In this document: in pieces, positions 61,303 through 64,000 of the stretch
How positions within the stretch are numbered: the stretch's first letter is position 1
Layout of the letters: each line of letters begins with the position of its first letter
Source of the DNA: Bacteroidia bacterium
Lineage (GTDB): Bacteria; Bacteroidota; Bacteroidia; Flavobacteriales; Flavobacteriaceae
Length of the DNA stretch: 64,000 nucleotides
Reading direction: 5' to 3'
Assembly: GCA_030431055.1 (NCBI GenBank)
Contig: JAUIJA010000010.1
Coordinates: 1-64,000, forward strand
Made by a program: the position numbers and the translations under genes
The notes under the pieces: generated by a model
The model's input: the letters and a program-made list of their open reading frames with translations, nothing else
What the model was told of the DNA's origin: nothing
Databases searched by the model: none

Positions 61303-61956
61303 TTATTTGTTCAAATTGAAAACTTTAGAAAAATTAGTAAAAACTTGATGTTTTATTTCTTCCAAAGTTATTTGTTTATAATTTGCTGCTTTTTGATAGA
61401 CTTCTGTAATACTTTCTTCAATTGTATCGGTTTCTAAAAACAGTAAATCATTAGGCACAAATTTAAAAACCTTTTCTAAATCTGGATTACGCAATAAATA
61501 TTTTCCAAAAGAAAGATAAAATCCGTTATCCAAAAGACTTTTGGCTACTTGTTCATTTTTAGAAAATCCGTGAATAATCATAGGATTATCAATATTCATT
61601 TCTTTTTTAATTCCAATCACTTCTTGATACGCCGCAACACAATGTAAAATAATTGGTTTAGTAGTTTGTTGTACCAATTCTAGTTGTTGTTGGAAAACTT
61701 CTGTTTGAATTTGTAACGGAATTTCAATTCGCTTATCCAAACCACATTCGCCTAATGCCAAGCAATTTTCAGTTTTTAGCTTTTCGGATATTAACTTTAA
61801 ATCATCTTGTAAACGTTCTTGATTGATATACCAAGGGTGAATTCCAATAGAATACTGAGGAATTTCAGTTGAAAATTCCCAAGGATATTGGTTTACAACT
61901 TCTAAAATTTCTTCAGAATTTGAAAAATGATGTGTATGTAGATTGATAAATTGCAT
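61303..61956 (-). CDS. TatD family hydrolase
   Basis: A 217-residue TIM-barrel metal hydrolase with FINLHTHH (HxH metal site), LGECGLDK, PIILHCVAAYQEV and FLETDTIEES. It is short compared with the 250-260 residues of TatD, which is usual for this Bacteroidota subgroup. Nuclease activity is a family property. Overlaps the DUF1684 gene by one base. Confidence 0.88.
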   Translation of the reverse strand: MQFINLHTHHFSNSEEILEVVNQYPWEFSTEIPQYSIGIHPWYINQERLQDDLKLISEKLKTENCLALGECGLDKRIEIPLQIQTEVFQQQLELVQQTTKPIILHCVAAYQEVIGIKKEMNIDNPMIIHGFSKNEQVAKSLLDNGFYLSFGKYLLRNPDLEKVFKFVPNDLLFLETDTIEESITEVYQKAANYKQITLEEIKHQVFTNFSKVFNLNK

Positions 61957-62549
61957 TAATCGTGAAACCTTTTAACGCCAGCTTTAATCTCAATATCCAA
62001 ATCATTCTCTAACGGAACAATCGGACACGAATATTTGTAATTGTAAGCACAATATGGATTATAGGCTTTATTAAAATTTATAATTACCGTTTTAGATTTT
62101 GGAATTCGCATATCGAGATAACGTCCGCCTATGTACGTTTCCTTTCCGTTAGTTTTATCAGAAAAAGGTAAAAACAAGTAATCTTTAAATCCGGGTTTTC
62201 TCGATAATTCTATATTTTGATACACATTCAATTTGAATGGCTTTCCATCAATTTCAAAATGCAATTCGCCATACTTTTTATACATCGGCGTTCGTGAAGT
62301 TGACGTTTTCATTTTAAAAACCTTTTCTTTCTTCGTTCTCACAAAAGTAGCTTCAACAATATATTTTTTAGAAATTGGGTAAAAATCTAAAGCTTCAAAA
62401 TGTGCTAAATCTTCTTCAAGTAAAGGTGAATGTTCAGCATCTTTATATTCTGAGTTTAATTTCAGTTGAAATTCTTCTGCTTGTTTTACTTGATTTTCTT
62501 GTCCGAAAGTGAAAATTGAAAACAATACAACAACTAAATATTTATACAT
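61956..62549 (-). CDS. DUF1684 domain protein, exported
   Basis: A 197-residue protein with a signal peptide (MYKYLVVVLFSIFTFGQ). The DUF1684 region has DFYPISKKYIVEATFVRT, FLPFSDKTNGKETYIGGRYLD and the C-terminal FNKAYNPYCAYNYKYSCP. Its function is unknown. Upstream of tatD with a one-base overlap, so cotranslated. Confidence 0.85.
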   Translation of the reverse strand: MYKYLVVVLFSIFTFGQENQVKQAEEFQLKLNSEYKDAEHSPLLEEDLAHFEALDFYPISKKYIVEATFVRTKKEKVFKMKTSTSRTPMYKKYGELHFEIDGKPFKLNVYQNIELSRKPGFKDYLFLPFSDKTNGKETYIGGRYLDMRIPKSKTVIINFNKAYNPYCAYNYKYSCPIVPLENDLDIEIKAGVKRFHD

Positions 62550-62586: not shown

Positions 62587-62642
62587 AACTTAAAATTTAG
62601 TTAAATAACTATTTTTATAGTTGGATAACTAAAAATATAGTT
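62587..62642. promoter_or_regulatory. Three BlaI-type operators spaced 20 bp apart
   Basis: Three 16-mers start at 62587, 62607 and 62627: AACTTAAAATTTAGTT, AACTATTTTTATAGTT and AACTAAAAATATAGTT. All share AACT...AGTT inverted ends. The exact 20-bp period is close to two helical turns, so repressor dimers could sit on one face. They overlap the blaI promoter. Confidence 0.75.
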
Positions 62643-62651
62643 GTAAGTTTG
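62621..62651 (+). promoter_or_regulatory. blaI promoter
   Basis: TTG (62621-62623), a 20-bp spacer and TAAGTTTG (62644-62651), exact for TAnnTTTG. The second and third operators cover the -33 and spacer region. Confidence 0.7.
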
Positions 62652-62680
62652 GTTTATCAATCGGATATACAAGTAATACT

Positions 62681-63040
62681 ATGCAAAAACTCACCAATAA
62701 AGAAGAAGAAATAATGCACATTTTATGGACGCTTAAAAAAGCGTTTGTAAAAGATGTTTTAGCTGAAATTACTGAAGACAAACCACATTATAATACACTT
62801 TCTACCATTATAAGAAACTTGGAAGAAAAAGGTTACGTTAGTCACAATGCTTACGGAAACACACATCAATACTTTCCAATTGTAAGTAAAGAAGATTATC
62901 GTAAAGGATTTATGAATACAGCGATTTCAAACTATTTTAATAATTCGTATAAAAATTTAGTTTCATTTTTTGCTGAAGAAGAAAAAATTTCGGCAGATGA
63001 ACTTCGTGAAATTTTAGATATAATCGAAAAGAAAAAATAA
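62681..63040 (+). CDS. blaI: BlaI/MecI/CopY family repressor
   Basis: A 119-residue winged-HTH repressor: LTNKEEEIMHILWTLKKAFVKDVL, then NTLSTIIRNLEEKGYVSHNAYG. The C-terminal helices mediate dimerisation. In beta-lactamase systems it is cleaved after the sensor protease is activated. It is 1 bp from the M56 gene, and tandem operators precede it. Confidence 0.93.
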   Translation: MQKLTNKEEEIMHILWTLKKAFVKDVLAEITEDKPHYNTLSTIIRNLEEKGYVSHNAYGNTHQYFPIVSKEDYRKGFMNTAISNYFNNSYKNLVSFFAEEEKISADELREILDIIEKKK

Positions 63041-63041
63041 T

Positions 63042-64000
63042 ATGGAAAATCTGCTATTTTACTTCTTAAAAGTTAACGCGATTTTGTCGTTGTTTTACGT
63101 TGTGTATTATCTTTTATTGCGAAAAGAAACCTTTTTTCAAGCCAATAGATTGTTTTTACTAGGAGGAATTGTTTCTGCGTTTGTAATTCCGCTTCTATCC
63201 TACTCTAAAGTAATTTGGATTGAGCCAACACCAATTAATTACAACGAGTTTATTCCTGTAAATAATTCAACTGAAAACATTTCTGCGATTCCAGAAGTTG
63301 CAAATTTCGATTGGAATTTTCTCTTCATTATGCTTTACGGATTAATTGTTACGATTTTATTAGCAAAAATAGTAGTTGAAGTAATTTCCTTTATTTCGGC
63401 TGTAAAATCAGGAAATAAAAATAAAGTCAACAAAGTAATTTTGGTTGAAACGTCGTTATTTGAAAATCCTTTTTCATTCTTTAACTATTTGGTTTACAAT
63501 AAATCAACTTTTACCAAAGAAGAATTAGAATTTATTATCACTCACGAAAGTATTCACATTAAACAATTACATTCTATAGATGTTTTAGTAAGTAAATTAG
63601 TTTCATTACTACTTTGGATAAATCCTATAGCTTGGTTGTATAGAAAAGCTATGCTTCAAAACTTAGAATTTATTGCTGATGCTGAAACTACAAAAGAATT
63701 ACAGAATTCATATAACTATCAAAAAACATTATTGAAATCTGTTTGCAATCAAAATAAATTATCAATCACAAATCAATTTTATCAATCATTAATCAAAAAA
63801 CGAATCGTTATGTTAAACACAAACCCTTCAAACAAAAGAAATTTATGGAAGTATTCGGTAATTCTTCCAATGTTAGTAGCTTTCTTTTTATTATATCAAG
63901 TGAAAACTATTGCGCAAGTTAAAGAAGCAAAATTTCCTAAAGTAATTGAAGAAGTTCAGGAAGTAAATCGTGTAGAATTAATTATAGACAAAAACACTTC
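63042..64000 (+). CDS. M56 family BlaR1-like metallopeptidase, 3' truncated by window edge
   Basis: Not in the ORF track because it has no stop inside the window. From the ATG at 63042 it encodes several transmembrane helices (MENLLFYFLKVNAILSLFYV, NFLFIMLYGLIVTILLAKIV) and the zinc site HESIH in FIITHESIHIKQLHSID. LEFIADAE provides the third ligand region. About 319 residues are visible. It is the likely sensor protease for BlaI; whether a penicillin-binding or TonB-like C-terminus follows cannot be seen. Confidence 0.92.
   Translation, partial: MENLLFYFLKVNAILSLFYVVYYLLLRKETFFQANRLFLLGGIVSAFVIPLLSYSKVIWIEPTPINYNEFIPVNNSTENISAIPEVANFDWNFLFIMLYGLIVTILLAKIVVEVISFISAVKSGNKNKVNKVILVETSLFENPFSFFNYLVYNKSTFTKEELEFIITHESIHIKQLHSIDVLVSKLVSLLLWINPIAWLYRKAMLQNLEFIADAETTKELQNSYNYQKTLLKSVCNQNKLSITNQFYQSLIKKRIVMLNTNPSNKRNLWKYSVILPMLVAFFLLYQVKTIAQVKEAKFPKVIEEVQEVNRVELIIDKNT

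Follow-up and report, generated by a model that had tools for sequence, protein, structure and literature searches.

A conserved array of tandem dyads over the blaI-M56 promoter of Flavobacteriaceae: predicted BlaI operators of an apparently undescribed layout

Background

Close to the end of the 64,000-nucleotide stretch of flavobacterial DNA that was analysed here (the window), the gene for a BlaI/MecI-family repressor is preceded by three 16-bp dyads in tandem. The locus raises the question whether these dyads are the operators through which BlaI controls its own operon, and whether their arrangement is particular to this genome or shared by its relatives. An earlier note on this DNA, made from the letters alone, had proposed the former and could not place a three-operator array with this half-site in a flavobacterium.

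Results and discussion

The array, its promoter and the adjoining genes

The features of the locus, with positions in the window, are the following:

61956..62549, minus strand: divergent DUF1684 gene (PF07920, E=5.2e-48), start codon 37 bp from O1
62587..62602, no strand: candidate operator O1, AACTTAAAATTTAGTT, a 16-bp dyad with 9/10 of the consensus arm positions
62607..62622, no strand: candidate operator O2, AACTATTTTTATAGTT, a 16-bp dyad overlapping the -33 TTG
62621..62623, plus strand: -33 element TTG, straddling the end of O2, with TTG at the equivalent place in 64/80 aligned Flavobacteriaceae arrays
62627..62642, no strand: candidate operator O3, AACTAAAAATATAGTT, a 16-bp dyad between the -33 and -7 elements
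62644..62651, plus strand: -7 element TAAGTTTG, the position of TAnnTTTG being nearly fixed relative to the last operator in relatives
62681..63040, plus strand: blaI, encoding a 119-aa BlaI/MecI-family repressor (PF03965, E=2.6e-32, residues 4-116)
63042..63998, continuing past the window, plus strand: gene of an M56 (BlaR1-like) membrane metallopeptidase (PF05569, E=7.7e-12)

All three dyads have the form AACT-N8-AGTT, start 20 bp apart and are separated by gaps of 4 bp, which bears out the coordinates and spacing given in the earlier note. The inner N6 consists of A/T only in all three and the outer ACTA/TAGT arms are kept; measured against the full AACTA/TAGTT arms, O1 departs in its left arm, which reads AACTT, and across relatives O1 combines a degenerate left arm with a nearly invariant right arm. 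The earlier note was equally right to lay the last two sites over the -33 TTG and the spacer: O2 overlaps the TTG and O3 lies wholly within the 20-bp spacer between the -33 and -7 elements, 38 bp ahead of the blaI start codon (62681). The Bacteroidota promoter consensus is TTTG/TANNTTTG, with transcription starting 4-5 nt past the -7 element (PMC6847099), and the start is therefore predicted near 62656, downstream of the entire array. The fourth base of the -7 box is G here, as in 67% of the aligned array promoters; G at this position is reported as virtually absent from F. johnsoniae promoters (PMC6847099), and here it could point to a weak promoter or to the use of a different holoenzyme.

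The encoded BlaI is the product of the only PF03965 gene in the genome and aligns with MecI (1sd6/1okr) across residues 4-118 (E about 4e-12); its AlphaFold model is of low confidence (mean pLDDT 51), with a winged-helix-like order of helices and strands. It contains no cysteine and hence no CXC motifs. The staphylococcal cleavage pair N101-F102 aligns to F96-F97, of which only the F is kept, and because the N-F pair is F-F here, the route of inactivation may differ from the staphylococcal one. The operators of S. aureus BlaI/MecI and of CopY have the inner core TACANNTGTA, which is absent from all three dyads; operator types differ among BlaI relatives, and we do not take this core as family-defining.

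The full M56 protein measures 616 aa in the contig (L040 3043-4893; PF05569, 6.8e-12) and contains HESIH, an HExxH motif. No Pfam match to a penicillin-binding sensor domain was found in this protein or in those of seven relatives, and two of these seven, L104 5362-7617 and L122 5363-6973, both encoded beside blaI, have a TonB-receptor plug domain at the place of the penicillin-binding sensor of BlaR1. The divergent DUF1684 gene is a possible but unsupported second target; it was rejected as a conserved co-target, since it is seldom a neighbour in those relatives that keep the array. At the contig end, beyond the window, lies an open reading frame (L040 5649-6167) whose product appears similar to a serine site-specific recombinase in its C-terminal portion.

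Uniqueness of the array in the genome

The phased doublet (AACTN8AGTTN4AACTN8AGTT) occurred in none of 200,000 first-order Markov sequences modelled on the same 131-bp intergenic region, and without mismatches it is found in the 2.43-Mb genome at the blaI array alone, as two overlapping doublets. No doublet at one mismatch was found across the 2.43-Mb genome, and at up to three mismatches the 63 whole-genome matches (59 for the reversed-pattern control) represent background. The single dyad AACTAN6TAGTT is present 8 times, against 10 for the control, and besides the two in the array its copies comprise five intragenic and one intergenic (L006) occurrences; a regulon search in this genome with the single motif was rejected because of this chance frequency. 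The earlier note had considered that the motif might be common at unrelated genes across the genome, which is not what we found, an outcome that favours the operator reading: since the single dyad is at chance level and the doublet unique, it is the array, rather than the single motif, that constitutes the signal and marks one promoter in the genome. Because this array is the sole one, the blaI-M56 operon is probably the main target of BlaI here.

Conservation in Flavobacteriaceae

The arrangement that the earlier note could not place proved to be standard for the blaI-M56 operons of Flavobacteriaceae, and common in Bacteroidia. We searched for it in three ways: i) a pattern search among 199 relatives recovered the doublet in 91, versus 2 for the reversed pattern, and 29 of the 30 loci inspected carried the array upstream of blaI-M56, the remaining one (L036) lying at a contig end; ii) a protein-based search yielded 80 named loci (Flavobacterium, Winogradskyella, Algibacter, Psychroserpens and MAGs), and wherever DNA upstream of the operon was available, which was so for 79 Flavobacteriaceae blaI-M56 loci, at least two dyads exactly 20 bp apart preceded the first blaI; and iii) in a family sample of 201 genomes, about one per genus, the doublet was present in 98 genomes (97 of 200 genera) and the reversed control in none. 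Ten Flavobacterium genomes (L077, L099, L102, L109, L115, L119, L120, L121, L124, L126) have a tandem duplication of blaI-M56 that shares a single array.

Within the family sample the doublet follows the repressor: it was found in 94 of the 112 genomes with an ortholog of this BlaI, in 4 of the 43 with only more distant BlaI matches and in none of the 46 with neither (94/112 with versus 4/89 without the ortholog, Fisher p=4e-33, species not being independent). The exact doublet is absent from 18 of the 112 ortholog-containing genomes.

The array also keeps its place on the promoter. The -7 box (TAnnTTTG) begins 17 bp past the start of the last operator in 74 of the 80 aligned arrays (16 bp in 4), while its distance to the ATG varies among relatives from about 40 to over 200 bp. 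Across the 79-80 aligned promoters the information content is highest in the dyad arms (1.84 bits) and almost as high in the -7 box (1.79 bits), but lower in the inner N6 (1.23 bits) and the flanks (0.33 bits), these bits, like the conservation counts, being inflated and not independent because the aligned loci share ancestry.

These constraints bear on a reading in which the repeats work at the RNA level, forming leader hairpins or a terminator, instead of being DNA operators. As RNA the region does fold better than its shuffles (z=-3.9), which is to be expected of an array of palindromes; however, it is from the last operator, and not from the ATG, that the -7 box stands at a steady distance. 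Moreover, the whole array precedes the -7 box and, with the start predicted above, would not be transcribed from the blaI promoter, on which ground we reject the RNA reading as highly improbable.

Spread and spacing in the class Bacteroidia

BlaI-M56 pairs are widespread across Flavobacteriaceae and other Bacteroidia. When 295 Bacteroidia genomes were scanned, without regard to their genes, for pairs of exact dyads separated by any gap from 0 to 25 (26 allowed gaps), the gap was exactly 4 in 43 of the 58 dyad pairs counted among the listed matches, with the reversed control present in 4 genomes; 25 of the 28 scan loci inspected were situated at a blaI gene. Families beyond Flavobacteriaceae mostly have two dyads, with three in some (L172; L180, with AACTG arms). 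In family f55 (G508, G595, G623, G672, G475) two dyads with a 4-bp gap are accompanied by a third, 12-17 bp away, and the three-dyad places G508:C18 and G475:C6 were confirmed as blaI promoters.

With respect to inner N, gap and period, 124 loci have the combination 6, 4, 20, three have 7, 4, 21 and six, of the xTTxAS class described below, have 5, 4, 19. The earlier note had read the exact phasing as repressor dimers cooperating on one face of the DNA. The 20-bp spacing holds at this locus, but the period in relatives is 19, 20 or 21 with the 4-bp gap constant, and therefore an edge-to-edge contact between dimers explains the spacing better than helical phase.

The same invariant gap can be taken to favour another register, in which the dimers would sit on TAGTT-N4-AACTA across the gaps (62598-62611 and 62618-62631), giving two operators with the outer half-sites left over. 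TAGTTN4AACTA occurs in the window at those two places only, and its N4 is the spacing that stays invariant while inner N is 5, 6 or 7. We nevertheless judge this register unlikely: it strands two conserved arms, the arrays opening with AACTA and closing with TAGTT; the N6 dyads are kept at loci where the gap is 1, 2, 5, 6, 7 or 12-17; one locus (L169) has a single N6 dyad; and the N6 register is also that of CTACA-NN-TGTAG, the classical operator type seen with relatives of BlaI within Bacteroidia.

Covariation with the recognition helix

The half-site changes along with the recognition helix of the associated BlaI. AACTAN6TAGTT was found upstream of 131 of the 155 BlaI with helix xNTxST and of 5 of the 30 in all other helix classes (p=7e-13, a value that is descriptive only because the classes were drawn after the first alignments had been inspected). 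Among the 24 xNTxST exceptions, many lie inside tandem operons or have their array at a greater distance upstream. TTCGTAN4TACGAA precedes 8 of the 9 BlaI with helix xTTxAS, and the classical TCTACANNTGTAGA type precedes 5 of the 11 with helix xTTxxT/STxxT. The xTTxAS proteins form a second BlaI class (L171, L175, L183, L216, L225, L228) with TACGA/TCGTA operators, mostly at a 19-bp period.

Assays apart, this covariation of repressor and operator is in our view the strongest indication that BlaI would be the protein that binds. It weighs against the suggestion that the sites belong to some other regulator by which blaI happens to be controlled, and so does the occurrence of the array where an ortholog of this BlaI occurs. 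A point in favour of such a regulator is that arrays stand ahead of other genes than blaI in some genera; all in all we give this suggestion very little credence.

Other possible targets

A few other genera also have such arrays in front of genes that are not accompanied by blaI, or that are placed before it. PF00144 beta-lactamase-family serine hydrolases lie directly downstream of a phased array in L191 (1562-2968) and L205 (1519-2964), and in L205 blaI follows the PF00144 gene in the same direction. PF00144 also covers many hydrolases other than beta-lactamases. The suggestion in the earlier note that a beta-lactamase might be among the targets thus finds a parallel in these two relatives, though not in the genome studied here, which holds no second array. 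An S41-family peptidase gene stands behind the array at L198, and genes of outer-membrane or secreted proteins stand behind those at L193, L195, L199, L202 and L204. A non-blaI array at L133/L196 was rejected as a target, being a long, terminator-like inverted repeat just after an HU-like gene.

A proposed mechanism

Conservation, position and recognition-helix covariation give strong comparative support to the three dyads as predicted operators of BlaI at the promoter of its gene, and we consider this assignment very probable. The likely mechanism is an autorepression of blaI-M56 through cooperative binding, from which the M56 protease would release the operon. The genomes themselves show where the sites lie and how they are spaced, how far they are conserved, that they stand at blaI and that they vary together with BlaI; that BlaI binds, does so cooperatively and represses, that M56 relieves the repression, and what kind of signal it answers, we infer as follows. 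One BlaI dimer would occupy each AACTA-N6-TAGTT dyad, making contact via the N-terminus of the recognition helix (H-Y-N-T-L-S-T), and neighbouring dimers, held at the fixed 4-bp edge-to-edge gap, would probably bind cooperatively. Dimers on O2 and O3 would lie over the -33 element and over the spacer between it and the -7 box, and so block transcription of blaI-M56, with the weaker O1 extending the assembly. The M56 membrane protease would sense an envelope signal and inactivate BlaI, either directly or through other proteases, upon which the operon would be derepressed.

Relation to known systems

Autoregulation of BlaI through several operators is established in other systems. In bla and mec of B. 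licheniformis and S. aureus, BlaI dimers likewise occupy several operators (three in B. licheniformis, OP1-OP3) and blaI likewise adjoins a membrane metalloprotease gene; unlike the array here, they act on a divergent beta-lactamase gene as well (PMC3305447). The BlaR1 of bla/mec, moreover, has a penicillin-binding sensor domain, and the M56 protein here is without one. The cop operators of CopY/CopR, repressors of the same superfamily, resemble the array in that two of them often lie over the promoter, but differ in sequence (RNYKACANNTGTMRNY), in their distance of 24-39 bases and in the metal-sensing CXC motifs of the repressor (PMC7253601). Similar in half-site are BlaI_1845 and BlaI_0696 of C. 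thermocellum, for which DAP-seq gave GACTAT/GTCTAT, close to AACTA, and targets with two ordered pairs (PMC8457756). These repressors resemble the system predicted here in their autoregulation via ordered inverted-repeat pairs (four protomers there) and in their small regulons; they differ in having two pairs, not three, and in belonging to a different phylum, and in the text consulted we found no mention of a fixed 4-bp gap (PMC8457756).

In the open-access literature we found no description of a Bacteroidota BlaI operator, of the binding or expression of any Bacteroidota BlaI, or of a BlaI-M56 signal, and an earlier one in subscription journals is possible. As far as we found, three things are new: the half-site of Bacteroidia together with its tandem arrangement at a fixed gap, the form with three dyads at a Bacteroidota promoter, and how deeply the array is conserved.

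Conclusions

The array is real, functional-looking and deeply conserved, an apparently undescribed version of a known kind of self-repressing switch. More tentatively, and leaning slightly the other way, we entertain the wider possibility that Bacteroidia have a BlaI operator code of their own (AACTA/TAGTT tandem dyads, the gap being fixed at 4 bp), serving a BlaI-M56 switch that senses the envelope without beta-lactam sensing via a penicillin-binding domain, which in some genera would also control secreted serine hydrolases and outer-membrane proteins. Since the sensor is without a penicillin-binding domain, what these cells sense becomes a question. The fixed-gap array would provide a clean test of dimer-dimer cooperativity in the BlaI family, and the rule formed by half-site, fixed gap, promoter placement and recognition-helix match would make the targets of BlaI-M56 systems predictable from sequence.
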